Shown here piece after piece: positions 47,933-64,000 of a stretch of 64,000 bases of DNA. The stretch is from an uncultured Pseudomonadales bacterium. GTDB lineage: Bacteria; Pseudomonadota; Gammaproteobacteria; Pseudomonadales; Azotimanducaceae. The stretch spans positions 2,790,001 through 2,854,000 of the forward strand of contig OY282430.1 of the NCBI GenBank assembly GCA_958296025.1. Reading direction: 5' to 3'. Numbering within the stretch: the stretch's first letter is position 1; each line of letters starts with the position of its first letter. Under the pieces are notes generated by a model, which saw nothing but the letters and a program-made list of their open reading frames with translations, ran no database searches and was not told the DNA's origin. The position numbers and the translations under genes are program-made.

Positions 47933-50605
47933 TTATAGCCAACCTTGCGCCAAGGTGCGCCGTTTGGCGTCGTTGTCCAGCACCCGGGCGCAGGATTCCC
48001 AATCGATGGGCTTGACCTCGTGATACCGGAGTTCGAACGGATGCTGCTGCGGCACCCGGTCGATGGTCCGCTTGGCTTCCTCCGCTTGGCCTAGGGCCAC
48101 CTTCACCCAAACGTCCTCCAAGGTGTCCGGCAACTGGCCGAACAGCCGGGAGATGTCCTCCAAGCGTTCGGAGAGCAGATCATGGACCCGGTCCTCAACC
48201 GAGCCGGCGTAGCGCATGTTGTAGATATCGACTTCAGGGCGGATCTGGCCGATGCGTTGGATCCTGCCCTTGCGCTGCTCCAAGCGGGACGGGTTCCAAG
48301 GCAGGTCCAAGTTGATGAGGGCGCCCAAGCGCTGCAGGTTCAGCCCCTCAGATGCGGCGTCCGTGCCGATCAGCAGCCGCAGTTCGCCTTTGCGTACGGC
48401 GTCCTTCAGGGCATCCCTGGGCTTGGGCTGGAAATCGCCCCGGCGCATCAGGCCGGAACGGCTGGCGGCGGCGTAAAGGCCGATGGTCTCGTTCGGCATT
48501 TGCCGGGCAAGTGCATTCGCCAGCCACCACGCCGAGTCGTAATACTGGCTGAAGACGATGCACCCATGCCTTAGCCAATTGTCCTCCGCAAGCAGGCGCA
48601 TGACGGCGGCGCACTTCGGGTCCTGATCCCGATTCGTTTCCATCGCATCCGCCAGCCGCGACAGCACTTGGCGTTCGTCCTTTGTCAGGGCGCGGAACGG
48701 CTCGGCCATGTCCTCGTCGTCCTCATCCTCCAGGTCCGCCCAGCCTTCCAGAATCTTGATGACGGTCAGGCGGCCGGCCTCCATCGTGCTGCCCATGCGC
48801 CGCAGCAACAGGGTGCGAAAGAAGCCAGCGTTCGCCCGTTGGGCGAGCAGGCCGCAGAAATGCTCGGCTTGCCGATAGGCATCCTCTAGGAATGGCGGCA
48901 ACCGGATGGCGTCCGCCTCGGACTCGCCGTGCAGCCGAACGCGCACTGGGGCGAGCAGTGGTTCCCCTGTTTCCGGGTCTTGGGTGTTTTCGAGATGTTC
49001 GCGGGTGCGCCGGACGATGGCGCGGATGTAGGGGTTGTGGCGCTCGATAAAGCGAGTGAAGCCTCGGTCGATGCGCTGCCGGTCCGGCAGCCGCAGGGAT
49101 TCAAGGGCACTGCCGTTGGCGTAGGCGGCTTGGTCCGGCAGGGAAAGCGACCGCCGCAGAACCTCAAAATCCCGCCCCTCCGAGCTGGGCGGGAGGGGGT
49201 TGCGCAGCCAATCCCAACGCTCGTGCAAGTCCTCTGGCAATGGGGCCTTGCCGAGCAGCAAATCCAAGGATGGCTGAGGGGCGCTGCGCCATTTGCTGCC
49301 GGGGCCGCCTAGCACGGCGGACGAACCTTGGGCCAAGGCGTCTAGCAGATCGTAAGCCTCGATGGGGTGCAGCTGCACCGGCGTCGCCGTGGCCAACAGC
49401 AGGCTCTTGGTGCGGGGCGAAATCTCGCGCAGGAATCTCAGGAGGTTGTTGGGCTCAAACGCAAGCACCCGGCTGCCGGATAGATTCCGCCGCCGCGCCC
49501 GATGCGCCTCGTCCAGGATGACGCACTCGAAGTGCATGCCCAACAGGAACGCAACAGCCTGGGAGTTGCTGGTGATCAGGCTGGTGGAGACGATGCCGAC
49601 CCGCCGCGGGCAGCGCCGAATGGCGTCTTCCCCTGTATTGGGATGCTCAATGCCCCGTTCGTCCACCCAACCGCGCCCGCTCCAGATGGCGGACGGCAGC
49701 CCCAACAACAGGTCAAGCTCGTCCTGCCATTGGCGAAGCAAGGGCTTGGGCACCAACACGAGCACCGGGCCATCGCCCACCAACGCCATGAGTTGGGCGG
49801 CCATGGCCAGTTGCAGGGTCTTGCCCAAACCGACCTGATCGGCCAGCACCAAGCGAGCGCCGTGCGTTCCGCGATGGGCGTCAAAGGCGAGTTTGACGAA
49901 ATGCTTTTGATGCTCCCAAAGCCCAACTTCCCGGCGATAGACCGGCGCCTCCACCAGCGCCGATGCGGGGTCCGGTTCATCCCGCCACTCTTCCACATCA
50001 CGCACCAACTCGCGCCGGGACAGTCGGTCCAAGTCCTGCACGACGAAATCCGCAAGCGGCGCCGCGAAGGAGGACGACCAAAGGGCGTCGAACTCCTCTT
50101 GAACCCAAGCCACCGCGTTAGGCGAATCGTCTTCCCATACGAGTTCGTAGTTGAGCCGGAAGGCCGCCTTGGATTCATTGGCGCTGCCCAGAAAGGAAGT
50201 GCGGCTGCCGTCCGCCAAGGTGATGACGCCGGCCTTCCCATGAATGAGGCCAAACGCCTCATCGGGCAGCACGCGAATCTCCATCTTGCCGGAATTCAGA
50301 AAGTTGTAGAGGCGCTTGAAGCGCGGTTTAGCTGCCTCGCCAAATTCCTCCGGGCGGAAGCCGCACCATTCGCGGCGTATGGCGGCTTGAGCGGCCTTGG
50401 CCACTTCCACATCTGCCGGCAAAAGGCCCGAGTTGCAGACCACGCGGATCTTGCCCGCGACGGTTTCCAGCGCCTCGCCGGCAATTTCTAGGATGGAGGA
50501 TGAGAAGTAGCCGGCGATGCGGTCGTAGGTTTGGGCACCGGCGAGTCGCCTAGAAAGAAAGCTGGCGTCTAGGGGTTGGCGGCGGGATGAGTAACGTTTG
50601 ATCAA
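47933..50605 (-). CDS. PLD-domain SNF2 helicase (anti-phage associated)
   Basis: 890 residues from TTG 50605. The first 180 residues are a phospholipase D-like module (ASFLSRRLAGAQTYDRIAGYFSSS, GLIHGKAGVI with the HxK half motif, FLGSANESKAAF). The rest is a SNF2-type helicase: Walker A LADQVGLGKTLQLA, Walker B VILDEAHRARR, motif III LLATATPVQ, and the C-terminal half with VFSQYYDSAWWLAN, LIGTDAASEGLNLQ and LEQRKGRIQRIGQ. Proteins of this layout accompany DUF1156 methylases and DUF499 ATPases in phage-defence loci. It is the last gene of the minus-strand block and converges on engB 24 bases away. Confidence 0.88.
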   Translation of the reverse strand: MIKRYSSRRQPLDASFLSRRLAGAQTYDRIAGYFSSSILEIAGEALETVAGKIRVVCNSGLLPADVEVAKAAQAAIRREWCGFRPEEFGEAAKPRFKRLYNFLNSGKMEIRVLPDEAFGLIHGKAGVITLADGSRTSFLGSANESKAAFRLNYELVWEDDSPNAVAWVQEEFDALWSSSFAAPLADFVVQDLDRLSRRELVRDVEEWRDEPDPASALVEAPVYRREVGLWEHQKHFVKLAFDAHRGTHGARLVLADQVGLGKTLQLAMAAQLMALVGDGPVLVLVPKPLLRQWQDELDLLLGLPSAIWSGRGWVDERGIEHPNTGEDAIRRCPRRVGIVSTSLITSNSQAVAFLLGMHFECVILDEAHRARRRNLSGSRVLAFEPNNLLRFLREISPRTKSLLLATATPVQLHPIEAYDLLDALAQGSSAVLGGPGSKWRSAPQPSLDLLLGKAPLPEDLHERWDWLRNPLPPSSEGRDFEVLRRSLSLPDQAAYANGSALESLRLPDRQRIDRGFTRFIERHNPYIRAIVRRTREHLENTQDPETGEPLLAPVRVRLHGESEADAIRLPPFLEDAYRQAEHFCGLLAQRANAGFFRTLLLRRMGSTMEAGRLTVIKILEGWADLEDEDDEDMAEPFRALTKDERQVLSRLADAMETNRDQDPKCAAVMRLLAEDNWLRHGCIVFSQYYDSAWWLANALARQMPNETIGLYAAASRSGLMRRGDFQPKPRDALKDAVRKGELRLLIGTDAASEGLNLQRLGALINLDLPWNPSRLEQRKGRIQRIGQIRPEVDIYNMRYAGSVEDRVHDLLSERLEDISRLFGQLPDTLEDVWVKVALGQAEEAKRTIDRVPQQHPFELRYHEVKPIDWESCARVLDNDAKRRTLAQGWL

Positions 50606-50638: not shown

Positions 50639-51958
50639 TTAGGCCGGCCGCTCCTTCCACAACCGCACTGTGAACCGCTCTCCTTCTTCAACCAAGTCGG
50701 GCTCCGTATCGTTGTGCTCCTTCATGCCGCGCACGATTTTGCGCGGCACACCCATCCCCATGTGCTCCAAATAACCGTAGTCCCGCATCACGTCCTTCAG
50801 CAGTTCGTTGCGGGCGCTTCGGCAACCAACGCGCATCCGCTCCGGCGTGATGCCGTTTGGCAGACGGCCGGGGCTGATGACTTCCAAGCGGTCCGCATAG
50901 ATGCTGATTTCGATGTCAGTGCCGGAAAGCGAGTAGTCGCGGTGGACGATGGCGTTGACGATGGTCTCGCGCAGCGCATCCGGCGGATAGTCCCACCGCT
51001 CCCGGCGGCGAACTCCGTCTTCAAGCCGAACCGTGTCGATGTTCCGCCTGATGAACGCCATCGCCTGCTCCACGAGACCGGGTTCGAGCAGCGAGCCGTC
51101 TGCGGCGAGCAAAGGCGCAATTGGCCCGCGCATGGTGCAACGCTCCTGTGCATCGTAATCCTTCTCAGTGCCGAAGTATGCGGCTGCATCCACCTTCGCA
51201 TGCGGCAGGAACCGGTTGGGGTTTCTGCCGAACAGCATCAGACCAGCGACGGTTGTTGGATGAGGCGCATCCTCGCTCAGTAGCTCCGTATTCACCAGGA
51301 GTGGTTGCCAAGCAAGCACTTCGGTGTCGTGCCACTCCTGCTCTCGATCTTCGGGCAACGCTGTTGAGGACCTGTCTGCCGGCAAGTCTTGGCCGCGGAT
51401 GCGCACGAAGTAGTCCACCAGCCGGCACCAGTCCAAGTGAACCACGGATGTGCCGGACACCGGCTGAAGCTCCAGACGGTAGGCCCCGCGCTGCTGAAAC
51501 AGGCGCGCCAGTTCCTCTGGGCTCGCTTCCCGGTTGATGCTGCCGACGCGAATGTAGTAGGTGCGATGTTGGTTGTGCCATAGGTGATGCACGGTCCAAC
51601 CGCGCTCCACCCGCACAACGGCCACGTCCCGACCAGGCTCCACATCGGGAATGACCTCGAAGTGGGGAATGAGCTCGGGGCGTATCTTGTCCCGGCACGC
51701 TTGAACAATCCATTCCTCCAGCTTCCGGTAGGTGCGCCTACCGCTGCCCTTGGTGCCCTCGGCCTCAAGCGCATCCCGCCTCGCGAGCCCGCTAACGCCG
51801 CTGTCATTTTCCACGCCAAGCAACAGCCGCCCACCCCGGAGGTTAGCGAGCGCGACGACCTCCTTCGCCAGCTCTCGATTGTCGATCCTGTCACTCTTGA
51901 ACTCGATGCTGGAGTTCTCGCCCTGAGCTATTAGCTCCCGCAGTTCCGTCTTCGTCAT
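50639..51958 (-). CDS. AlbA_2/Schlafen-type ATP-binding protein
   Basis: 439 residues from ATG 51958. The N-terminal AlbA_2 (Schlafen AAA_4) module is seen as SSIEFKSDRIDNRELAKEVVALANLRGGRLLLGVEN. The C-terminal half has a GHKL-like ATPase region (PPDALRETIVNAIVHRDYSLSGTDIEISIY, then RLEVISPGRLPNGIT) and ends with the wing YGYLEHMGMGVPRKIV. Such proteins are frequent in defence islands and are sometimes annotated as transcriptional regulators or RecG-like; the function is not established. It sits between the nuclease-like gene and the helicase on the same strand. Confidence 0.85.
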   Translation of the reverse strand: MTKTELRELIAQGENSSIEFKSDRIDNRELAKEVVALANLRGGRLLLGVENDSGVSGLARRDALEAEGTKGSGRRTYRKLEEWIVQACRDKIRPELIPHFEVIPDVEPGRDVAVVRVERGWTVHHLWHNQHRTYYIRVGSINREASPEELARLFQQRGAYRLELQPVSGTSVVHLDWCRLVDYFVRIRGQDLPADRSSTALPEDREQEWHDTEVLAWQPLLVNTELLSEDAPHPTTVAGLMLFGRNPNRFLPHAKVDAAAYFGTEKDYDAQERCTMRGPIAPLLAADGSLLEPGLVEQAMAFIRRNIDTVRLEDGVRRRERWDYPPDALRETIVNAIVHRDYSLSGTDIEISIYADRLEVISPGRLPNGITPERMRVGCRSARNELLKDVMRDYGYLEHMGMGVPRKIVRGMKEHNDTEPDLVEEGERFTVRLWKERPA

Positions 51959-52140
51959 CCGCTGTCACCTACCCGCAGTTGGTTCCAGAATAACCGCCGC
52001 TATGGACTCCAAGGCAAACTGCATGGCGTTCCATGCCTAAGCCCCAACGCCTTGGCGACAAAGCCCATCGCCGACTGGACCATGAAATACTGCATGTTAT
52101 TGTTAAGGAGCTCGCCGTGAGTTTAGACATCCTCGTCCTC

Positions 52141-53454
52141 CTACGCCTCCCAAGTTAGGGGTTTTCCCTCTTGAAAGTGAGCCATTCTCACCGATGCAAT
52201 AGAATTACGGATGAGGTTGGCAGCGATAACGTCGCGACGCCATCGCTCGATTTGGGTAAAAGGACAATACATCGATGCTAGATTCAGGAGGATTACCCAA
52301 ATCGTGTCCTTATGATTTTGGTAGTCGGGAACATTGTTCTTTAGCCACTCACGGCCTTTCCAGACGTCCTCGGTTTCAGCGACCTTCCATACGGCGTAAA
52401 GAGTGCGCCCTACAAGCCCACGCCCGAACGAGGAAACTTGCCACTCGCCATCCCGAAACTCCGAAGGGGTCCTCATGCGCACTTGGCCTCTCAAACCCGG
52501 CTGTAGAAGGACGCCGTAATCGGTCACGCCAAGTTCACTTGCTAACTCTTGAAACCTCTGAAAATAGTCCGAACCAATCGTATCAGAGGTTGCAGATTCT
52601 TTGCTATCTTCCCTTTTCTTTCCAGTGTAAGGGTTCTTAAAACCAACATGTATCTCGTAATTTAGCTCCAATTCCAGCCCCTTAATATACAACTTTTCCT
52701 CTGGAACAAGCTGTTGCCACCACGGCCGATCCTCTTCGAGAAACTGCACGTCATGAAATTTCTCGCCTGTCATTTTATTGAACAACAGCAAGTGATTCCC
52801 TAGGAGGACGAAGACAGCGTCAAACATCGTACCCTCACCCCAGTACTTACTTAATCGGCCACTTGTCAATTCAAGAGCCCTTTTAATATCTTTATCGGAA
52901 ATTCCCGCCGGAGCCAGCCCACGGAATTTGACCAACAACCAATTTCTATCGAACTTATCATAGTTTCCAGACAACTTCCTTTGCTTACGACATACAGCCC
53001 TGTCTATCAAGGCAGCAAACTCCTTCTCAGCCATATCGCCAACATAGAATTCTCTCGGGGAAACCAAGACACCGAGTTCATTTACTTCCGGGGACGCCAT
53101 CACTTTCGCATAGTCCTGAACTACGGCCTCAGTAACCTCTATTCCGATAGTCAAGGAGCCGTGTCCTCCGCCCTGTTGTGATCCGAGATTGCCTGAGGCA
53201 AATTCGATGTTTTCATTTGTCATAGTTTCTAGCAGGAAGTCGGGCGATTCGCGTTTGCAGAGGCGAAGTGGTGCCTCCACGCAGCCCCTCTCCTGCAGCG
53301 CTTGAAGCAATTTATGCACTAGCCATTGTTCTCTTCCCTCCTTATTACTGTCCGTTCTTTGGGGTGCAATCGAATCCAAATCTTGGATGGAGGCATCCAG
53401 CTCTGATTTGGTATTGGCATCGATCAGAATTTTGTTTTTCACGGGACTAGACAT
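52141..53454 (-). CDS. Nuclease-like protein sharing the DUF1156 C-terminal domain
   Basis: 437 residues; I do not recognise a named family. N-terminal part: SPDFLLE at about 70-76 and LTIGIEVTEAV at 101-111 have the D...E-x-T arrangement often seen in PD-(D/E)XK-like restriction nucleases. C-terminal part (about 244-425) is plainly related to the last 140 residues of the neighbouring DUF1156 methylase: VPEEKLYIKGLELE against APEEKLYLKGLDIE, and GRTLYAVWKVAET against RHALYAVWWAAET. The ATG overlaps the methylase stop by 8 bases, so they are translationally coupled. Base composition is clearly more AT-rich than its neighbours, pointing to separate acquisition. Confidence 0.72.
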   Translation of the reverse strand: MSSPVKNKILIDANTKSELDASIQDLDSIAPQRTDSNKEGREQWLVHKLLQALQERGCVEAPLRLCKRESPDFLLETMTNENIEFASGNLGSQQGGGHGSLTIGIEVTEAVVQDYAKVMASPEVNELGVLVSPREFYVGDMAEKEFAALIDRAVCRKQRKLSGNYDKFDRNWLLVKFRGLAPAGISDKDIKRALELTSGRLSKYWGEGTMFDAVFVLLGNHLLLFNKMTGEKFHDVQFLEEDRPWWQQLVPEEKLYIKGLELELNYEIHVGFKNPYTGKKREDSKESATSDTIGSDYFQRFQELASELGVTDYGVLLQPGLRGQVRMRTPSEFRDGEWQVSSFGRGLVGRTLYAVWKVAETEDVWKGREWLKNNVPDYQNHKDTIWVILLNLASMYCPFTQIERWRRDVIAANLIRNSIASVRMAHFQEGKPLTWEA

Positions 53455-56416
53455 GGTCGTTCTCCACGGTGCCGGCGACGAGGCGGGCGGCGGCGGCGTC
53501 TTGTTGCCAATGGTCCATTTCCAAGGCTGCGAGGTAGCGTAGCACAGCGGCGAGGGCTTCGCGTTGCGGCCAGTAGTTGGGGAGTTCGGTGCGCAGCCAG
53601 GTGAGGCTTTCCGCCGTGTCGCCCGTCTCGGCGGCCCACCAGACGGCGTAGAGGGCGTGGCGGACTAGGCTGCCGCCGCGCTTGAATTCGGAGGCGGTCT
53701 TCAGGCGGGTTTGGTTGGCCTTGCCAGTGTGCAGCAGGTGGCGGTAGTCCTGGACGCCGAACCCCCGGGCGAACTCCTGATAGACGCCGGAGCGAAAGTC
53801 GCCGTGGCGTTCGATGTCCAAGCCCTTGAGGTAGAGCTTTTCCTCCGGGGCGAGGGACCGCCAGACGTGGTCGGGCAGGCTGTCCGGGATGAGGAAGTTG
53901 CTGTCGGTGCGCACGGCGTCGGCGATGATCTTCTCGATGGGGTTGAGTTCGCCGCGCCTGCGTTCCCGGGAGAGTTGGTAGGCAATGTCCACGTCCTCGA
54001 TGGCGCCGTATTGAGTGAGCACCCGCAGCGCCGCGGCGTAGGCGGCGAGCTGGTAGTCGGCGTCGGAGAAGTTGGGGTCGTCACGGTCGTCGAGTTCGAG
54101 CATGGATTGGAGCTGACCTTCCACTTCAACTTCCACTTCGGGGACGATTTCGTCCAAGAACGCCGTTTCACTGGAGGTTTGCTTGCGCAACACCATGAGT
54201 ACAGTGCCTTGAACGTAGTTGCCTTCCTTTACGCCAAAAGGCGTTTCCGTAGCGACGGTCCAGGCCGCGGTGACGCGGAGTCCCGCGGCCCATAGAATCA
54301 GGGTCAGGTCCGCCCAGATTGCCGCGTCCTGGTGGGTGAACATCACCACTTGCACACCGTTTTCCGGCATGTGCGCGGCTAGGTTTCGGTAGCTCTCCAC
54401 CATTGAGCGATGGAAAGCCGCACCTGTGCCTTGAACGGCCAAGGCACGTTTGCTATCTGTGTAGCCGCGTGGGAACAACTCCAGCAGTCTCTTTCCACAC
54501 CATGCCAGGAAGAATTCGGAAAGCTCGTGGTAGTTGATCGCGTCGGCGTAGGGGGGGTCCGTAATCCAGATGTCGGCCTTGTTGGCGACGTTGCGAGCGT
54601 CCATTGGTAACACTTGTCCGCTGCCCCCTACTTGGGTGTCGTGCTGTCTGATGTACCATGAGTCGACCAACGTGAGGACGCCACGACTGCCGAACGTCAC
54701 AAGAGTGTTCAAAGCCTGATTGCTGAAAGTCTGTATCACTTTTTCGCCAGCTCGGTCAGGCCACCACCGCGACAGCTTGCTGTTCCAGTCCGCTACCCGC
54801 CCTAGCCCGAGCAAACATGCGGCCTTCGCTTCGATAGGCAGGTTGGACGCTGCCGATGTCTCTGCCAACGCGCCATGCACCAATAGCTGCCGCGGCCTGA
54901 ACAGATGATGCCAATACGTCCATCCTCGCGTTCGGACCGGCTCATCGGTCTTGTGGCCCGGCGTGATCGACCGGCTTGGGATGCAGCCCTTCGCCTGCCA
55001 CCCAGCAAAACGTTCCTGCAGCAAGGCAAGCGCCCGGGCTTCCCGCTGCAAGTCGGCGTCGCCAACGCTGCGGTACTCGGCTGGCGCTTTCTCTCCCGGC
55101 GAACGCCAGCGCACGCAGTAGAGCCTTTCCTGAAACACGTCCTGCGGGCGCGGCACCAAGTCGTCATTCCGCCACTGCCGCAGCCCGTAGCCGCGTCCGC
55201 CGCCGCCGCGCTGATCGCCGCGAATGGCGGCCATCGGCGTCGAAGCCTGACAATTCGGGCACTCCAGCCGCGAGTTCCGCACGGTGCCGGCGTTGCGGGC
55301 TGTCGTCAGCGCCTCCCGGCTTTGACCGGAGTGAATGCCGATGGCAAAGCGCTTCTTGCCCTGTTCCGGCGTTAGCTTTGCGAGGGTGTGCGTCTTTTCA
55401 CCGATCACCCAGCTTGGCGCCAAGGGAACTTGCCAGCCGCATTCCGGGCAGATGGTTTCCGTGCAATATAGAAAGGCGTCCGCTCGCCAGCCGTCTTCGT
55501 CATGTTCGATGCCCCACTCCGTCACCTGCCGGTCCACGGCCTCGAACACGGCGGTTTGCGCCTCGCGCACTTGCTGCGCCACCGCCTTGCCGCCGCCAAC
55601 GATGTTCAACGCGCCCCAAGTGAGCAGCGCAGCCACCGGGTTCAGGTCCGAACCGTACGCCTCGCAGCCGATGCGGGCCGCCTCAAAGGGAACGCTGCCG
55701 CCGCCGCAGAAGGCGTCCCCCACCCGCGGGATGCGCCCGAAACGCCGCTTGCCCAACTCCCGCACCAACTCCGGCAGGCTGGCGGCGCTTGTGCCTAGAT
55801 GCGCATTGATGGCCTTCCAGGCTTCCGGCGAAGGCCCATCCAGATGCTCCGGCCGGCTGCACCAACGGAGCTTCTCGTCATAACTCATGCGGTCAAAGAC
55901 AAGCTGCTGCAACCGTTGCCGCCCTTCGGCCTTCGTGCCTTGCTTGAGCTTAGGCCGGTCAGGCGCCGAACTTGAAGCAAACCACTCGTTTCGTTCCTCC
56001 GGCGACAGCCGCCCGCGTACTTCCTTGAGCGGAATGTTGCCTTTCTTGCGCCGCCGCAAGCCATCCTCGTCCATCGTGAGCAGCGCCAGAAACACCTCCC
56101 GGTCCCTGCGCGGATCGTTCGAGGCCGGCATCAGCAGACCCAAGATCGCGGCCCGCACCAAAACCAGCGGCTTGCGCCCCCACCACTTGCCAAGCCCTGT
56201 CAACGTCTGGCTGTAGTTGGCCTTGCGCTCCTTGTAGCTCTCCTTGGAAAGGCGCGAGACGGGGAACTGCGTCTCAATGAAGGTTGGGGCATCGGTCGGT
56301 GCGTTGCCTGACACACGGCCACGCAAAGCGGCTGCATCGGCAACTTGCAACGCCACGGCTAAGTCCCCGCCCAAGGCGGTGCGTCGGCTGCTCCATGTCG
56401 GTTTCTCAACCGCCAT
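53447..56416 (-). CDS. DUF1156 DNA methylase (anti-phage associated)
   Basis: 989 residues. It begins with the DUF1156 block (IETQFPVSRLSKESYKERKANYS, GLGKWWGRKPLVLVRA), then an AdoMet-binding region (AFCGGGSVPFEAARIGCEAYGSDLNPVAA), two CxxC-type zinc clusters (ICPECGW, LECPNCQ) and the catalytic DPPY in DPPYADAINYHELSEFFLAW, as in N6-adenine or N4-cytosine methylases. The C-terminal 140 residues form a separate domain repeated in the next gene. ATG 56416 has AGGAGG upstream but overlaps DUF5131 by 58 bases; GTG 56356 would avoid the overlap. Probably the modification component of a phage-defence system. Confidence 0.88.
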   Translation of the reverse strand: MAVEKPTWSSRRTALGGDLAVALQVADAAALRGRVSGNAPTDAPTFIETQFPVSRLSKESYKERKANYSQTLTGLGKWWGRKPLVLVRAAILGLLMPASNDPRRDREVFLALLTMDEDGLRRRKKGNIPLKEVRGRLSPEERNEWFASSSAPDRPKLKQGTKAEGRQRLQQLVFDRMSYDEKLRWCSRPEHLDGPSPEAWKAINAHLGTSAASLPELVRELGKRRFGRIPRVGDAFCGGGSVPFEAARIGCEAYGSDLNPVAALLTWGALNIVGGGKAVAQQVREAQTAVFEAVDRQVTEWGIEHDEDGWRADAFLYCTETICPECGWQVPLAPSWVIGEKTHTLAKLTPEQGKKRFAIGIHSGQSREALTTARNAGTVRNSRLECPNCQASTPMAAIRGDQRGGGGRGYGLRQWRNDDLVPRPQDVFQERLYCVRWRSPGEKAPAEYRSVGDADLQREARALALLQERFAGWQAKGCIPSRSITPGHKTDEPVRTRGWTYWHHLFRPRQLLVHGALAETSAASNLPIEAKAACLLGLGRVADWNSKLSRWWPDRAGEKVIQTFSNQALNTLVTFGSRGVLTLVDSWYIRQHDTQVGGSGQVLPMDARNVANKADIWITDPPYADAINYHELSEFFLAWCGKRLLELFPRGYTDSKRALAVQGTGAAFHRSMVESYRNLAAHMPENGVQVVMFTHQDAAIWADLTLILWAAGLRVTAAWTVATETPFGVKEGNYVQGTVLMVLRKQTSSETAFLDEIVPEVEVEVEGQLQSMLELDDRDDPNFSDADYQLAAYAAALRVLTQYGAIEDVDIAYQLSRERRRGELNPIEKIIADAVRTDSNFLIPDSLPDHVWRSLAPEEKLYLKGLDIERHGDFRSGVYQEFARGFGVQDYRHLLHTGKANQTRLKTASEFKRGGSLVRHALYAVWWAAETGDTAESLTWLRTELPNYWPQREALAAVLRYLAALEMDHWQQDAAAARLVAGTVENDHV

Positions 56417-57153
56417 TGGCTGTCACGCCCTCCTGCAGGGGGATATCCCAACCATTTCCACCCATCCAATATGCTCCTACTGGACTTCGGCGTCTTTCCG
56501 CCCCACTGCCTGAACGAGAATGCCGCGCTTTGAGCTTGGCATTGGTCACGGACATCACTCAGCCACTTCACGTCCACCGTCCGGACACCAGGGCCGCTTT
56601 CGCTGTCGGCGATCACCCAATGGATGCCGCTCAGATCAACTGCGCCGACAGGACCGAGCAGCGGCTCGAGGGACGCAAAGCGCACTGCCGCATTCGTCTG
56701 CTTCAGGTGCCGCAGGCGGCTTAGCGTGGAGACGTCCTCAATGGAGACGCCAAGCCAGATGTGGGGTGGCGCGGACCCATTCGCGTAGCGTTGGCTTACG
56801 AAGCTCCGCATCAGGGAGCTGCGCTTGGTGGGCACTTGGTTGGTGCGCCAGTCCGCCTGTTCCATCGCGCTGAACACGCGGCCTATGTACTCCGTGGGGA
56901 TGTCCTTGTGGAACAGGTCGCTCATGGAGTTCACGAAGATGAGCCGCGGCCGCCGCCAGCGCTCGGGCTGGCCTAGGCGCTCCGGGCGCAAGGTGAGGTC
57001 GAAGCCCTGCTCAAAGGGGTGGCCCGGCACACCGCGGAAGCGCTCCGAGAAGCGTTCGGTGTAGCAGTGGTCGCATCCGGCGCTTAGCTTGGAACACCCG
57101 GTGACCGGGTTCCAGGAGGCGTTGGTCCACTCAATGGCGCTGTGGTCGGACAT
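56359..57153 (-). CDS. DUF5131 (phage Gp37/Gp68-like) radical SAM-type protein
   Basis: 264 residues. The N-terminus (IEWTNASWNPVTGC) and CSKLSAGCDHCYTERF carry three spaced cysteines (C-x6-C-x2-C in this copy), as in the radical-SAM-like DUF5131 family; LIFVNSMSDLFHKDIP and IADSESGPGVRTVDVKW are also conserved. The length is normal. The function is unknown; family members occur in phages and in defence loci. It is the first gene after the toxin-antitoxin insertion and overlaps the methylase gene by 58 bases. Confidence 0.83.
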   Translation of the reverse strand: MSDHSAIEWTNASWNPVTGCSKLSAGCDHCYTERFSERFRGVPGHPFEQGFDLTLRPERLGQPERWRRPRLIFVNSMSDLFHKDIPTEYIGRVFSAMEQADWRTNQVPTKRSSLMRSFVSQRYANGSAPPHIWLGVSIEDVSTLSRLRHLKQTNAAVRFASLEPLLGPVGAVDLSGIHWVIADSESGPGVRTVDVKWLSDVRDQCQAQSAAFSFRQWGGKTPKSSRSILDGWKWLGYPPAGGRDSQWRLRNRHGAADAPPWAGT

Positions 57154-57822: not shown

Positions 57823-58209
57823 TTGGTTTCCGCAACAGACAAACTGAAACTAGCCAAGCGACATCTTGAGCGCATCCAAGCCGCTTGTTGGAAGGATCCG
57901 GTCGATTGGGCCGATTTTTCGATCTATGGATTCTATGCTTTGGAAGCCGCCGTCGACGCCGCTTGCCTGCACTACGGCACCATCATCGAGAAAAGGCATC
58001 CCGCTAGGGCTGCTGCCGCAGAAAAACTGGCGGTTGAGCACCAGCTTGAGGATGTTGCAGGCTTGCTTTTTGACCTCAATGAACTCCGCAAAAGTGTCAG
58101 CTACGGGGATGTTGAAGGCCCTGAACTAGCAGCAGAGGAAACGGCCGGCAGAATTGAATCATATATCAACGCGGTCGCAAACCTCATCGAAAGCGGCAAT
58201 TCATCGTGA
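57823..58209 (+). CDS. HEPN-like partner of a minimal nucleotidyltransferase
   Basis: 128 residues from TTG 57823, supported by AAGGAGG eight bases upstream. All-helical small protein (LKLAKRHLERIQAACW, FSIYGFYALEAAVDAACLHYG, VAGLLFDLNELRKSVSYGD). The size, helical pattern and overlap with a nucleotidyltransferase gene fit a HEPN/MNT toxin-antitoxin pair, but the canonical R-x4-6-H ribonuclease motif is not visible, so it could be a substrate-binding rather than a toxic HEPN. The stop overlaps the next start (GTGA). Confidence 0.6.
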   Translation: MVSATDKLKLAKRHLERIQAACWKDPVDWADFSIYGFYALEAAVDAACLHYGTIIEKRHPARAAAAEKLAVEHQLEDVAGLLFDLNELRKSVSYGDVEGPELAAEETAGRIESYINAVANLIESGNSS

Positions 58210-58868
58210 CCATGAAGTCTCTGGGAACTGCAATACTCAGGTGGCCCACGGCCCGTTCCAGGGTATGGCTCACTGCATTCCTAGAGCGGGTGCGGAGAGA
58301 TCCAAATGTGGTCTCGGTCGTAGCCATCGGATCTTCCGTGCGGCCCGGGGTCGCTTCGGAAGATCTTGACGTGATCGTTATTTGCCGCGATGCAAATGCA
58401 TTAGTGGAAAAAGCACCAATGGAGATCGATCTCCGCAAAGTAAATTTTGATTGCGTTGAAGAGAAAGTGGAGAACGGACACGACTTAGTGTCTTGGGCGG
58501 TGCGTTTCGGCCAACCGTTGCTGGACAACGGACGTGCGTGGGAGGATATCGTTCATCGTTGGAGAAGTCGTCTGCCTCTCCCTGACCCCAAGGTCTCCAT
58601 GGACCGCGCCAAGGCCATGCGTAAGCGGATGGAGGAAATGCGCGACATTGGCGATGAGGATGCGTTCGCCGACCTGCAAGTCTCCTATCTGACACACCGA
58701 GCTAGAGCTTGCTTGGCGAAAGCCGGGGTGTATCCTCAATCTCGCCCTGAACTTCCTTGTCAGCTTAGAAAGCTGGGAGAACTCCAGCTTGCCGGGGAGC
58801 TAGAGGCTATTTTATCGGAGAGGGAAAATGGCGCCGCAATCGGATTGGGTGTCGAAGGAAACGCATGA
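58206..58868 (+). CDS. Minimal nucleotidyltransferase (MNT) domain protein
   Basis: 220 residues from GTG 58206 or ATG 58212. The polymerase-beta motif is AIGSSVRPGVASEDLDVIVI (GS followed by D-x-D at about 53-55), with a further acidic residue in MEIDLRKV. A helical C-terminal half (about 120-210) looks like a fused HEPN-type bundle (LQVSYLTHRARACLAKAGVYP). In HEPN/MNT modules the MNT often inactivates the HEPN toxin by AMPylation. It is opposite in orientation to the defence genes around it. Confidence 0.7.
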   Translation: MTMKSLGTAILRWPTARSRVWLTAFLERVRRDPNVVSVVAIGSSVRPGVASEDLDVIVICRDANALVEKAPMEIDLRKVNFDCVEEKVENGHDLVSWAVRFGQPLLDNGRAWEDIVHRWRSRLPLPDPKVSMDRAKAMRKRMEEMRDIGDEDAFADLQVSYLTHRARACLAKAGVYPQSRPELPCQLRKLGELQLAGELEAILSERENGAAIGLGVEGNA

Positions 58869-59205: not shown

Positions 59206-59382
59206 TCATGGGCCAAGGTCATGCACCAAAATTTCGAGCAAGGCCAAGGCAGTGGAACTGGAGGCGTACACGGCTGGATGGCCCGGAGGAGTCCAGCGTC
59301 CACCAACCCGCAACGCACCTTCGCCAGAAAAGGCGCCGTCGGTAAACTTCGGCAGGGTAAGGCGGTAGATGCGCAACGGCAT
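59206..59382 (-). pseudogene. Truncated RES-domain toxin
   Basis: Starts ATG 59382, 9 bases after the antitoxin stop, with AAGG upstream. It encodes 58 residues beginning MPLRIYRLTLPKFTDGAFSG, then GGRWTPPGHPAVYA and TALALLEILVH, which is the N-terminal third of a RES toxin (normally about 150 residues), and stops at TGA 59206-59208. Neither the following bases nor other frames continue the family, so the rest is deleted or replaced. RES toxins degrade NAD+; this remnant should be inactive. Confidence 0.75.
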
Positions 59383-59391
59383 CAATTGGCC

Positions 59392-59799
59392 TTAGCTGTA
59401 AACGCCGAATTCGAGACGGGTGAGAATGTTGTCCACTTCGTGAACGTCGGCGTCCGTGTCCAGCATGGACAGTGGCGCCTCGCCGAAGAGGGCGGGGTTC
59501 GGCGCTGCAAACCAAGCCGCCCCGCCTTTGGCGTGCTCAAACACCGCCTTGGCGTGCTCAAAGACCCGCCAGGCCCGTACCAATCGATCGGATTCCACTG
59601 GGGAAAGGACAGCCTCAGGCGCCTCAGTGCGCACCCGGCTCCACTTACGCGGAGAAACGCCGATGACTTGGGCAAACTTCGCCACAGGGATGGACCAAGT
59701 TTGCATCACTTCAACGGCGTCGGCCACGGATACGCCCTGCCGAGCGCGGGCAACAAGGGTTAAGGTGTCGGTCCCGGATTGAATGGCGGAGGCTGACAT
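59392..59799 (-). CDS. Xre/MbcA/ParS-type antitoxin
   Basis: 135 residues. The central part (IPVAKFAQVIGVSPRKWSRVR, VLSPVESDRLVRAWRVFEHAK) is the Xre-like helix-turn-helix of the ParS/Xre antitoxins, and the C-terminal WFAAPNPALFGEAPLSMLDTDADVHEVDNILTRLE region is their toxin-binding DUF2384 domain, ending GVYS. A 10-residue internal duplication (AWRVFEHAKAVFEHAK) is present. It normally neutralises a downstream RES toxin; that gene is truncated here. Confidence 0.85.
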   Translation of the reverse strand: MSASAIQSGTDTLTLVARARQGVSVADAVEVMQTWSIPVAKFAQVIGVSPRKWSRVRTEAPEAVLSPVESDRLVRAWRVFEHAKAVFEHAKGGAAWFAAPNPALFGEAPLSMLDTDADVHEVDNILTRLEFGVYS

Positions 59800-59954
59800 G
59801 GCTTCTCCACGAAATCAGTCTTGTGTCGCATAGTATAAGACATTTGTCCTGTTTTCTGATCTCGCCGCCAGACAATTGCCGCAACGCCCTTTTTGCCGCG
59901 GCGCTTGACATCGTCGCCCTAGCTCTCTAGTTGGTCACCAAGGCCACGCCGGCG

Positions 59955-60623
59955 TCATTCGGCCATTCGCCGGTCGAGCGCTTGCTCGGTGTGGGGCGCA
60001 GCCGTTGACCGGCTAGGACGGCCGTTCTGCACCCGTCCATCCGCCGCCACCAGCCGGAATATCTCCCTTTGCCGCTCCTGGCGGTCGCCGCTGACCGGGT
60101 TCTCGGTCAGCGCGAAGCGCACCGCCTTGCGCCAGCCTTTGTTTTTGCCGTGCAGGGCGTGGCCGGTGGCGGCGTTGGTCATGGTGAACAGCCACCAGCG
60201 CTCTTCCGGGGCCAACCCTAGCCAATTCTTCACCGCCGCGGGAATGAGTGCGGGGTCGGCGTCCTCCACGGCCCAAGCGAGCAGGGTCAGTTCCTTGCCA
60301 AGCAGACGGGCGACGGGATTGGCCCCTCGCTTCCAACGGCCTGACGGCAACCCTTGCTTTCTGAGGCGGCGGTTGAATTCAACGCGCACCTCTTCGGCAA
60401 TCGCCGTCCACTTGGGGCGCGGCAGCACCACCCGCGACTTGGCGTCTTGTTGGCCCACGCCCAAGGCGGGCGAGGCGTCGTCCGCGTTCGGGCCGAAGGC
60501 GAGGTGCTCCGCAATCAGCACACTCCCGCGGTTCCCGCCCGGCACCGTCACTACGAAATGGTGTTCGGATTCCTGCGGTTGAAACCCGAACCCCAGCGGC
60601 TTGGCGCGGCGCACTGCGGTCAC
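59955..60623 (-). CDS. DUF3780 protein (anti-phage associated)
   Basis: 222 residues from GTG 60623, overlapping the DUF499 stop (GTGA), so translationally coupled to it. Conserved blocks: GFGFQPQESEHHFVVTVPGG, PKWTAIAEEVRVEFNRRLR, PSGRWKRGANPVARLLGKEL and LAPEERWWLFTMTNAATG. This matches DUF3780, a family found with DUF499 and DUF1156 genes in phage-defence loci; its function is unknown. The C-terminal 30 residues are low complexity. Confidence 0.83.
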   Translation of the reverse strand: MTAVRRAKPLGFGFQPQESEHHFVVTVPGGNRGSVLIAEHLAFGPNADDASPALGVGQQDAKSRVVLPRPKWTAIAEEVRVEFNRRLRKQGLPSGRWKRGANPVARLLGKELTLLAWAVEDADPALIPAAVKNWLGLAPEERWWLFTMTNAATGHALHGKNKGWRKAVRFALTENPVSGDRQERQREIFRLVAADGRVQNGRPSRSTAAPHTEQALDRRMAE

Positions 60624-62128
60624 GGCGTCACGTCCTCGCGCCGGTAGTCGGCTTTGATTTCCGCCACATGATCGAGGAAGCGCTGCCCGGTCTCGTAGAG
60701 AACGCGCCGCGCCTCAATGGAGACTTCGCCATCGGCGACGAATTCCCGCAGCTTTTCCACCGCTTGCTCGATGAGTTCGCCGTCCAGCGCGATGTCGTCG
60801 GAGAAATTGAGTTCGCCCCAAGTTGCAAGCCCCGCTCCCCCAGCGGCCTGCACGTTGAGGCGCAAGCCGCTGGCGGTGCCGCCATGCTTCTTAAGGCGGG
60901 CGATGAAGCCGTAGGCGGTGCGGGTGGTGGTGAACTCAAAACCGCCGGATGGAGACCAGACCGCGGGGCTGGCCTTGTCAATGGGCTTGGCAACGGGTTC
61001 TTCGGCAAGCTCGCGGCGGTGCTGGTCCGAGGCGACGCCGTCCCTCTCGGCCAGCGCAAGAATCAGCCTGGCACCTTCGGGAACCGCGAACGGCCCTTCG
61101 TAGGCGCCGCCGGCCACCTTGGGGTCGGAGCCGTCGGTGGTGTAGCGGATGGCCGCCGTCGGTGCGGCGCGGAGCTCGACCATGCGCCGTTCGCCTTCCA
61201 TATACTCGCGGGATTGCAGGGTGATGCGGTTCAGCCATGCAACGGGTTCGCCGGTTTCGTGTACACCTGTGGAGTCCACAGCAAGAAAGGAAACTCTAAG
61301 CTCCCCAGTCTCAAAGTTGCGCCCGTCCAGCTGGCCGGACGCCGGCGTTGCCGGAGCGCCCACCTCCCAATGGAGCCGGTCGGCATGCACCGGCGACAAG
61401 CGCAGCTTCGCTAGGCCGGTGCCGTCGTCGCGGCTGAGTTCCTGAATGCGTACGCTGGTCGCCGGCTTGGGAAACGGCCCTTTGTTGACGTAGTTGCCCT
61501 CCTCACGCCAGAGGTCCTTGTGCAGGCAATCCGCCTTGATCCTCTCCAAGGCGTTGGGCGGGTGCCATTGCCACACGGGGGCGGTGGCGGCGCGGCGCTT
61601 GATCTCTGTCCACAGCATGGACTGCTGGGTGAAAAGCCTCGCCTCAACCTTGCGGCGGAAGGTTTCGCCGGCTATGTCCTCGGTGTACTTCTGCTTATCC
61701 GCTAGGGCGGCCATCACCTGTTCCTCGCCGTTGTAGCGGTTGTCCTTGAACTCCATCAGGAAATCGACCTTCGCCAGCCGGTCCCGGGTGGGATAGTGCA
61801 GGGTGGTGAAGGTCTCCCGCACGGCACTGTGGAACTGGGTGAGGAAACGTGGCAGGAGTTGGTCCCGGGCCTGCTGCATTTGCGGGTCACTGTCGGATAC
61901 GCCCTCTTGGTGCATCTCCTCAATGATCTGGTTGATGGCCTTCAACTCCCGCGCCCGCTCCAGCAGCGAGTCGAAGGCGCGTTGCCCAGTCAGGAAGCAG
62001 AGGCGGTTGCGGTAGGTGTGCTGTTCGTACAGTTCCGTCAGGGCCGGATGCAGGCCCGCCGGATGGGGTTCGGCCACCACCAGCGTCACCTGTTCCGGGT
62101 TGACGTTGATTTCATCCACCGCCGGCAA
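60620..62128 (-). CDS. DUF499 ATPase, C-terminal part (separated by a frameshift)
   Basis: Open frame of 502 residues that continues the DUF499 protein begun at 63686. Its listed start (GTG 62128) is only the first possible codon; the true coding continuity in this frame runs from the frameshift at about 62226 (YLRDQATKELKERL...). It contains the DUF499 middle region (FLTGQRAFDSLLERARELKAIN, DKQKYTEDIAGETFRRKVEARL) and, at about 318-365, a chitobiase-C-terminal-like segment (IRYTTDGSDP, YEGPFAVPEG). Whether it is translated by itself is doubtful. Confidence 0.8.
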   Translation of the reverse strand: MPAVDEINVNPEQVTLVVAEPHPAGLHPALTELYEQHTYRNRLCFLTGQRAFDSLLERARELKAINQIIEEMHQEGVSDSDPQMQQARDQLLPRFLTQFHSAVRETFTTLHYPTRDRLAKVDFLMEFKDNRYNGEEQVMAALADKQKYTEDIAGETFRRKVEARLFTQQSMLWTEIKRRAATAPVWQWHPPNALERIKADCLHKDLWREEGNYVNKGPFPKPATSVRIQELSRDDGTGLAKLRLSPVHADRLHWEVGAPATPASGQLDGRNFETGELRVSFLAVDSTGVHETGEPVAWLNRITLQSREYMEGERRMVELRAAPTAAIRYTTDGSDPKVAGGAYEGPFAVPEGARLILALAERDGVASDQHRRELAEEPVAKPIDKASPAVWSPSGGFEFTTTRTAYGFIARLKKHGGTASGLRLNVQAAGGAGLATWGELNFSDDIALDGELIEQAVEKLREFVADGEVSIEARRVLYETGQRFLDHVAEIKADYRREDVTP

Positions 62129-63686
62129 CGGCTGCAGGCGTTGATAGCAGGAACCTTCGGCCGGCTCGAATATCTCGGTCAGCCGCTCCTTGAGTTCCTT
62201 GGTGGCTTGGTCGCGCAGGTAGGCGGGTCACCCGGGCGATCAGGTTCTGCACGTTGCGCAGGTGCAGGCGGCCGTCGCTGGTGGTGTGCAAGTACCAAGC
62301 GGCGGTGGCCAAGCGGGCGATCACCTCCGTTTGCAGGCGAGAGACATCGCGGTTCGGGGTACACAGGTTGGCCACCAGTTCCGGGATGTGCAGGCCCTTG
62401 ATGGCATTGGGCACGTTGGCTAGGGAGGCGATGAGCAGCAATCGCATGACGTCTTGAGCGTCTTCGCCGCCGAGATTTGCATCAATGGTCTGCGCCACCG
62501 CATTGCCGCCCGAGGCGATGTCGTGGGCGATGGCGTTGCCTAGGGTGGGGTTGATCTGGTTGATTTCGGTCAGCGTCTCCCGGCTTTCCAAGTCCAGATC
62601 ATGGGGGGCGATGAGATAGGGGTCAGGGCCGCTTTCCCAAATCCGCGCAACGATGATCCGCATCAGGCGGATCAGCCCGCGGGTTTGCTGAAAGCCTTGG
62701 TTCTCCCGGAACCGGCCATACAGGTCGCGGATGGCGGGGTGAAAGGGGTAGGACTCCACGATTTGGTTGGCGAACTGCTCCGGCGAGGCGTTGGTCACGT
62801 CCATCTGCTTCGCCTCCCGAACCGCCTTGGCGTAGCCTTGCGCGACCTGCTCAACTTCGTCTTCGCTAGGCAGCGTTTGGAAAATGCGCTTGCGCAGGAT
62901 GTGGTAGAACTCATCCGAATTCATGCGGACGGGCTCCAGGTTCATTGCGGTGCGGCCCGTCTCCGCCTCCAAGTTGTCCAGCGCTGCGACGATCTGCGCC
63001 GCCCCCTCCCCATAGGACGCCTTCAGGTCGGAGATGACCAAGCAGACGTTGCGCAACTCATCCCGACCCACCGCCACCAGCAGGTTCGACAGCGCCGTGG
63101 TGGTGACCGCCGACAGGTCCGAATTGCCGATGCTCTTGGACGCGGCATTGACGAAGTCAGGCGGCAGCTCGTCCAGCATGATGACCAGCGGCGCCCCTTG
63201 CAGCAAGTGTACCCAAGCCGTTTGGCCGGGGGCGGCCAAGGGCGCGTAGTAGTCCTTGAACTGCTCCTTCTTGCCAAGCTGCTCCGCAATGGCGCCCCAA
63301 ATGCCCAGCGGCGCATCGCTTTCACGCCCGGAAAAGGCCACCACTCGGACAGGGCCAAGGGCAGCGCCGGGGCTGTAAAAGCCGCCCATGACTTCGGCCC
63401 GGCACTGCGGGTGCTTGGCCAGCAAGCCAAGCGCCAAGAGGTTGTGGGTTTTGCCGCCGCCCATAGCTTGGGTGAGCTTGAACACTCCTTGGGTGGATTT
63501 GCCTTCCAATCGGGTGAATGCTTCGGTCAGCAACGTCTTCATGCCCTCGGTGACGTAGTTCTCGGCGAAGAACTCGGCCGGGGCAATCCGGTTGTCGATC
63601 AGGTCGGAGAGATCGAGAACGGTGTCCCTCCGCGTGGGGTCAAACGCGCCCGGCCGGGGCTCGCAAGCCTGCTTTACGGTTTGCAA
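62112..63686 (-). CDS. DUF499 ATPase, N-terminal part (frameshifted)
   Basis: 524 residues from TTG 63686, of which about the first 486 are genuine. ATPase motifs: Walker A TQAMGGGKTHNL and Walker B LVIMLDELPP. Typical DUF499 segments: FAENYVTEGMKTLLTEAFTRLEG, DEFYHILRKRIFQTLP, FHPAIRDLYGRFRENQGFQQTRGLIRLM. After NLIARV the frame changes: one extra G in GGG 62225-62227 (plus strand) turns the rest into unrelated residues ending PAAVAGGG. Restored, the gene would span 60620-63686 and encode about 1021 residues, the usual size. DUF499 ATPases accompany DUF1156 methylases in defence loci. Confidence 0.85.
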   Translation of the reverse strand: MQTVKQACEPRPGAFDPTRRDTVLDLSDLIDNRIAPAEFFAENYVTEGMKTLLTEAFTRLEGKSTQGVFKLTQAMGGGKTHNLLALGLLAKHPQCRAEVMGGFYSPGAALGPVRVVAFSGRESDAPLGIWGAIAEQLGKKEQFKDYYAPLAAPGQTAWVHLLQGAPLVIMLDELPPDFVNAASKSIGNSDLSAVTTTALSNLLVAVGRDELRNVCLVISDLKASYGEGAAQIVAALDNLEAETGRTAMNLEPVRMNSDEFYHILRKRIFQTLPSEDEVEQVAQGYAKAVREAKQMDVTNASPEQFANQIVESYPFHPAIRDLYGRFRENQGFQQTRGLIRLMRIIVARIWESGPDPYLIAPHDLDLESRETLTEINQINPTLGNAIAHDIASGGNAVAQTIDANLGGEDAQDVMRLLLIASLANVPNAIKGLHIPELVANLCTPNRDVSRLQTEVIARLATAAWYLHTTSDGRLHLRNVQNLIARVTRLPARPSHQGTQGAADRDIRAGRRFLLSTPAAVAGGG

Positions 63687-63832
63687 GATGGCATGTCCCG
63701 TTCGGTCATAAAAGTGCCGTTCGCCCCTTTGTTTTGTGCGTCATCGCCCTTTTCGGCTTGGGGGCAAAGCCGCACAGACGCACTGGTCGCTGAACGGGGA
63801 GTGTATCCCGGCGCAAAGCGAAGTTCACCCTC

Positions 63833-64000
63833 CTAGTGCGCCTCGTCCCAATTCGCCCCCACCCCGCAGTCCACCAGCAGGGGGACGGACAGGTTGGCGG
63901 CGGCGGACATGCGTTGGCGCACGCCGGCGATCAGTGCATCGACCGCATCCTCGGCCACCTCGAAGACCAGTTCGTCGTGGACCTGCATGATCATCAGGGC
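63833..64000 (-). CDS. polA: DNA polymerase I, C-terminal end
   Basis: Partial: the last 55 codons and the stop (TAG 63835-63833). They read [18 protein letters not shown] ... [17 protein letters not shown], the conserved end of bacterial PolA with the QVHDELVFE motif C. The rest lies beyond the window. It marks the right border of the defence island. Confidence 0.94.

Follow-up and report, generated by a model that had tools for sequence, protein, structure and literature searches.

A nuclease-like protein with a DUF1156 methylase C-terminus in a Type-2 BREX-related operon

A 437-aa protein encoded directly behind a DUF1156 methylase gene ends in the C-terminal part of that methylase type, joined to an N-terminal domain that resembles a PD-(D/E)XK nuclease in predicted structure and residue pattern. 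The gene lies in the window, i.e., the whole 64,000-nucleotide stretch of DNA that was analysed. The explanation that we favour, with a little less than even confidence, is that the protein is an auxiliary nuclease of a Type-2 BREX-related (BR) system, tethered to it by a methylase-derived adaptor. This explanation builds on what was observed: homology of the tail, the order of the domains, a composition that is foreign throughout the gene, its place in the operon and its conserved residues.

According to Rakesh and Krishnan (2026; PMC12839542), the Type-2 BR gene set consists of a DUF499 ATPase, DUF3780, a DUF1156 N6-methylase and an HKD/PLD-helicase. All four components are found in the window, where the minus strand reads DUF499, DUF3780, DUF5131, DUF1156 methylase, 437-aa gene, Schlafen/AlbA_2-HATPase and PLD-helicase, with toxin-antitoxin-like genes between DUF3780 and DUF5131; judged by its gene content, the host operon is a Type-2 BR system. 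Its features are:

62112-63686, minus strand: N-terminal part of the DUF499 ATPase (NF042962)
60620-62128, minus strand: C-terminal part of the DUF499 ATPase, in its own reading frame (NF042962)
59955-60623, minus strand: standalone DUF3780 protein (PF12635, 1.7e-53)
56359-57153, minus strand: DUF5131 gene, overlapping the methylase start
53447-56416, minus strand: DUF1156 N6-adenine methylase, 989 aa (NF042963, 1335.6 bits, cut-off 1000)
53462-53866, minus strand: methylase C-terminal part common to the 437-aa protein, about residues 851-985
53447-53454, minus strand: 8-base overlap ATGTCTAG, the 437-aa start inside the methylase end; three related loci have ATGTCT in frame at this position
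52141-53454, minus strand: chimeric 437-aa gene, N-terminal PD-(D/E)XK-like domain followed by a DUF1156-methylase tail
52771-53454, minus strand: N-terminal domain of the 437-aa protein, residues 1-228; conserved positions E42, D72, E106, T108, E109 and K157
52180-52725, minus strand: methylase-type tail of the 437-aa protein, residues 244-425, including about 28 inserted residues near 271-298
50639-51958, minus strand: Schlafen/AlbA_2 plus HATPase_c_4 protein, 439 aa, the second gene in the slot between methylase and helicase
47933-50605, minus strand: PLD (HKD) nuclease-helicase, 890 aa (NF042964, 1256.1 bits, cut-off 1100), with a PF13091 match at residues 20-176

The DUF499 ATPase is split over two overlapping frames, which cover positions 1-485 and 493-1023 of the NF042962 model and meet near 62200-62250; in the NCBIfam scan, the match of the second ORF covers 520-1023, and both parts stay below the curated cut-off of 1200 bits. 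The break could be a frameshift or an assembly error, and with DUF499 in two frames the system of the window may be inactive. Breaks occur in both single-contig genomes of the genus, in DUF499 in the window and in the methylase in the other genome (G005), and assembly errors could account for these too. According to PMC12839542, BREX and BR systems recurrently have PD-(D/E)XK, Schlafen(-HATPase) and other nucleases as auxiliary effectors, and the additional nucleases of Type-2 BR systems are regarded as backups; since such effectors are known, a nuclease extra to an operon of this kind is expected.

The toxin-antitoxin-like genes form a separate observation. At 57823-58868, where G+C is low, a HEPN-like gene (PF05168, 20.6 bits, cut-off 22) is followed by a 220-aa gene without a Pfam match but with a nucleotidyltransferase-like motif; this is probably a HEPN/MNT pair in a second operon slot. 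At 59206-59799, an Xre/MbcA/ParS antitoxin is followed by a RES domain of 59 aa only. When G005 (locus L049, 14297-15151) is compared with window 59211-64000, its Xre/RES-matching block lies 6 bases from a block matching the last 177 bases of the window, on the polA side, and DUF499 and DUF3780 are absent from that junction.

An earlier note on this DNA had claimed, from the letters alone, that the 437-aa and DUF1156 proteins match in their C-terminal parts, and the match holds up well. BLASTP aligns residues 246-419 of the 437-aa protein with methylase residues 852-984 (53/174 identities, 30%, E 2e-21); the 437-aa protein on its own matches NCBIfam DUF1156_antiphage (NF042963) over residues 244-419, at model positions 811-958 of 960 (4e-18); and in an hhalign comparison, its tail matches an alignment of nine methylase C-termini with a probability of 99.2 and an E of 7.7e-20. 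Upstream of methylase residue 850, no match to the 437-aa protein was reported. The similarity is far beyond chance, and at the sequence level the two tails are homologous. The 437-aa tail is diverged, not random: 37% identical to the methylase tail over shared columns, it keeps the consensus residue at 11 of the 19 shared columns that are conserved in at least 80% of 24 methylase tails, compared with 16/27 in the most divergent of three methylases (L017) when each was left out in turn and scored over a longer tail; the other two keep 23/27 and 22/26. AlphaFold predicts in both tails, in the same order, a short helix, two helices, a stretch of short strands or single bridges and four helices, with two more short helices in the 437-aa model. 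The two models thus agree in how their main elements follow one another, but they are not independent, because methylase tails are rows of the 437-aa protein's alignment.

As for the role of the tail, PMC12839542 assigns three HTH-like domains to the C-terminal end of DUF1156-type methylases and considers it likely that the homologous part in Type-3 BREX binds DNA. Both statements lend support to a rival explanation, in which the tail would bind DNA as a winged HTH module and take the nuclease to the DNA of the methylase, where the two enzymes would compete or act one after the other, as the earlier note had suggested. The same paper locates the target-recognition domain of these methylases elsewhere, as an insertion into their catalytic core; this tells against the DNA-binding tail and makes the target-reading role that had been offered for it less likely. 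The HTH assignment was not confirmed here: a Foldseek search with the methylase C-terminus model returned no match at E <= 0.001 and no recognisable HTH protein among the best 50 of 92 matches, all of them with E > 0.5, and the tail profile found only two chance-level matches (E 0.22 and 0.83) among the sequences of solved structures. Nor are the tails basic as a group, with a median net charge of -1 over 24 methylases (range -7 to +5) and -2 in the 437-aa protein; near-neutral charge leans weakly towards protein contact. On balance, we consider a DNA-binding tail unlikely.

The N-terminal domain carries the PDFLLE and GIEVTE motifs that had first hinted at a nuclease, and it has standalone relatives of 213-269 aa at 14 loci from one genome-contig scan and in three annotated plasmid genes (L005, L011, L012). 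Two of the scan loci (L058 and L059) encode an identical protein and two (L055 and L056) near-identical ones; the family alignment has 16 rows, i.e., 12 of the 14 scan loci, the three plasmid genes and the window, with a fourth plasmid record (L013, partial N-domain) left out. Invariant in 16/16 rows are E42, P71, D72, G104, E106, E109, A110 and K157 (window numbering), and at position 108, 15 rows have Thr and the remaining row Val. Most relatives have about 25-30 residues that are missing from the window copy, which in turn contains an insertion of about 20. Searches with the 16 members gave best E values of 0.064 in Pfam, 0.024 in PHROGs and 0.091 in NCBIfam and no match in PADLOC, and the N-domain profile matched none of the sequences of solved structures. 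We regard the group as an unclassified, unnamed candidate nuclease family of defence islands.

The core of PD-(D/E)XK enzymes follows the order alpha-beta-beta-beta-alpha-beta, with a Glu in the first helix, Pro-Asp before the second strand and a Glu in the third strand, followed by a Lys. The AlphaFold model of the whole 437-aa protein (22-row alignment, mean pLDDT 78.5; about 85-94 in the core by ten-residue blocks, except 75 at residues 31-40) contains a helix at 35-55, strands at 63-67, 73-77 and 101-110, a helix at 142-161 and a strand at 170-177, and thus has the order of the superfamily, as judged by element order only and not by coordinate distances. As in the superfamily, E42 lies in the predicted first helix, D72, preceded by P71, immediately before strand two and E106 within strand three, and these three acidic residues are present in 16/16 rows. 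Unlike the superfamily, the family has Thr (in 15/16 rows; Val in 1/16) where a Lys is expected two residues after the third acidic residue, and the invariant K157, located in the next helix, might stand in for it. Foldseek returned no match at E <= 0.001 among the best 50 of 355 PDB matches and the best 50 of 258 viral-model matches, and hence does not confirm the nuclease fold; the sole hint among the listed viral matches is a YqaJ-like viral recombinase (rank 22, E 1.3, probability 0.06), from a PD-(D/E)XK family. The suggestion of a PD-(D/E)XK N-terminus is thus borne out in the element order and the acidic positions and gains no support from the third-motif position or from the listed Foldseek matches; from the predicted structure and the residue pattern, a variant PD-(D/E)XK domain is probable.

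The same features raise the question of catalysis. The fold could be catalytically dead and, anchored by the tail, sense or hold DNA or divert phage inhibitors as a decoy: the third-motif Lys is missing in 16/16 aligned members, and inactive REase domains occur in BR helicases, for which sensing or decoy roles have been proposed (PMC12839542). This we hold to be quite improbable, as E42, D72, E106, E109 and K157 are invariant in 16/16 rows, a pattern that would fit catalysis better than a dead fold.

Genes of the standalone family appear to keep the company of defence genes. Ten neighbour proteins at eight standalone loci, picked by eye as informative-looking, were scanned with PADLOC and Pfam. 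PADLOC recognised Gabija at L055, L056 and L062, PDC-S06 at L058, SIR2 at L060 and HEC-05 (Pfam GmrSD_N) at L053, and gave no match for the neighbours at L057 and L005. A defence gene of one of four kinds therefore adjoins the N-domain gene at 6/8 chosen loci, which points to defence islands, with a frequency that the choice by eye may inflate. At the Gabija loci, the standalone gene adjoins GajA and GajB in two different orientations.

The smaller gene was said to be more AT-rich than its neighbour, and it is (G+C 0.483 vs 0.636 in the methylase). Its GC3 (0.517 for residues 1-240, 0.53 for the remainder) is below that of the methylase tail (0.876), the Schlafen gene (0.757) and the helicase (0.787). 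Because both halves share a low GC3 that sets them apart from the methylase tail, the chimera appears to have been imported as one unit; it is probably foreign and probably arrived already fused. We rejected the possibility that the tail was captured locally from the neighbour: a recent copy would match the neighbour in composition and be nearly identical to it, whereas the GC3 values are 0.53 and 0.876 and the identity over shared columns is that given above. A tree of the tails places the 437-aa tail beside methylases of the same bacterial family with a bootstrap of 63 only and on a long branch, a placement too weak to point to a donor lineage.

The slot that the apparently imported gene fills lies between the methylase and helicase genes. 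Both of these are present as long ORFs in 29 of 34 loci whose gap size was checked (some split or cut by a contig end); in 20/29 they adjoin, at most 38 bases apart and sometimes overlapping, and in 9/29 the slot is filled (gap > 1200 bases). The five loci outside the 29 are degraded or interrupted (L096, L101, L102, L108, L109), and the set of 34 omits six further Acinetobacter plasmid records, three distant records and weaker DUF1156-type matches. Among the 34, the N-domain gene is found in the window only (1/34), and so is a tail outside a methylase or a short presumed remnant. The DUF1156 family cut-off is passed in 2/398 genomes of a phylum sample, own genome included.

The contents of the slot differ between close relatives. 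G005, from the window's genus, has a helicase 95.3% and a methylase end 96.0% identical to those of the window in DNA, and its slot (L049) instead encodes a roughly 1000-aa Eco57I-like N6-methylase together with a partner of 225 aa. Such a methylase and a small partner also fill the slot at L097, identified by Pfam as at L049, and in G626 (L100), as judged by layout and not by Pfam. The slot of G627 (L099) contains an AAA protein with a PHP match just below the cut-off, plus Schlafen. The 8-base overlap between the 437-aa and methylase genes, reported in the earlier note, was found at 53447-53454, and at four loci the methylase end contains ATGTCT 8 bases before the end of the stop codon and in frame with the first slot gene (window 53447-53454; L049 9082-9089; L100 7568-7575; L099 9125-9132). 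Three unrelated families are represented among the first slot genes at this junction. The listed ORFs of the window and G626 start with the junction ATG; in G005 and G627, where the mechanical ORF extends further up, a start at this ATG is presumed. Taken across these four loci, the ATGTCT overlap reads as a fixed cassette junction, and the slot as exchangeable. G632 has an Eco57I-type cassette without the 8-base overlap, behind a 108-aa gene. Between the 437-aa and Schlafen genes of the window (51959-52140), there is a second ATGTCT without a long frame, perhaps the remnant of an earlier cassette.

The search for further proteins with this fusion recovered that of the own genome and found no second one in the genomes, plasmids, phages and viral contigs searched. 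Among relatives, 3/97 genomes matched, with the fusion in the own genome only; the N-domain was found in 1/299 and 1/398 genomes of phylum samples, both times the own genome (for some genomes, part of the first-look candidates was scored). A genome-contig scan with an N-domain pattern matched 132 stretches, of which 14 were confirmed, and none of these 14 loci has an ORF of at least 80 aa that matches the tail model at E up to 1; as the scan used a single pattern, a relative without it would be missed. A tail profile matched 7/206 genomes of the bacterial family and a mixed profile 4/293 genomes of the order, and in these small samples the matches besides the own 437-aa gene were methylases or short presumed methylase remnants. 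The protein search of plasmids gave three records, all DUF1156 tails and no fusion. In phages, neither the 437-aa protein nor the methylase had a match; viral contigs gave no match to the 437-aa protein, and only methylases when the query was the methylase (5 loci) or an alignment that had the 437-aa protein at its head (3 loci); N-domain queries found none in viral sequences.

Short tail ORFs turned up at L096 (7794-8600), L101 (6566-6775) and L108 (8126-8452), adjoining cassette genes at the first two loci and a truncated helicase at the third. As candidates for new fusions they were rejected and read as methylase 3' remnants, that at L101 (69 aa) presumptively.

Presumed remnants of this kind, with a tail beside cassette genes or a truncated helicase, make it conceivable that the 437-aa gene is a non-functional accident, i.e., a standalone gene that landed before a methylase 3' remnant, the fusion now drifting; that only one fused copy was found in the searches made would agree with this. 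Several observations weigh against an accident, which we judge very unlikely: the 437-aa ORF is intact, its start overlaps the methylase end as first slot genes do in three relatives, its two halves are alike in their foreign composition, its tail retains conserved residues about as often as the most divergent of the methylases tested, and all invariant N-domain residues are present.

According to the favoured explanation, that of a tethered auxiliary nuclease, the N-terminal domain would be a PD-(D/E)XK-like nuclease drawn from the standalone defence-island family, and the C-terminus would be the terminal helical part of a DUF1156-type methylase. That part would hold the methylase in the complex, most likely via the DUF499 ATPase or another core subunit; the same tail would bring the putative nuclease to the same complex, as a second cutter beside the PLD-helicase. 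What we infer here is the fold of a nuclease, based on the structure prediction and the pattern of residues, together with its activity, its docking via the tail and its partner. That the slot in relatives houses other restriction-type genes counts in favour of an accessory effector; the single fusion found, the Thr in place of Lys, the lack of a Foldseek match, the gaps and insertion in the N-domain and the split DUF499 count against it. The idea can be carried further, to a methylase tail that serves as a portable docking tag of Type-2 BR systems, whose carriers would be loaded on the ATPase-helicase complex. This generalisation is doubtful, at about one chance in four; if it were true, the slot behind the methylase could take up different effectors, each connected to the system through its fusion to the tag.

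How much of this is new depends on the part considered. The host system and the idea of additional nucleases are already known, whereas the chimera, the N-domain family and the slot with its fixed junction appear new within the searches made. The remark in the earlier note that no described system with this pair was known to it calls for correction: the host operon is a described Type-2 BR system, and PD-(D/E)XK auxiliary effectors have been described, while no description of the methylase-tail chimera was found in literature on DUF1156/DUF499/DUF3780 or in the accessible text of PMC12839542. A literature search on shared domains found nothing.

Compared with the Type-2 BR systems in the accessible text of PMC12839542, the window operon is alike in its DUF499, DUF3780, DUF1156 N6-methylase, HKD/PLD-helicase and Schlafen-HATPase, and differs in having a nuclease-like protein with a methylase C-terminus and a slot with a fixed 8-base junction. 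The chimera bears on nuclease recruitment by BREX and BR systems: it points to the methylase C-terminus as an interface and offers a direct test of it. The window resembles Type II restriction-modification pairs and Type I HsdS in that a nuclease and a methylase could share one localising element; by contrast, the shared element in the window is the C-terminal helical part of the methylase rather than a target-recognition domain, and each of the two proteins carries its own copy.
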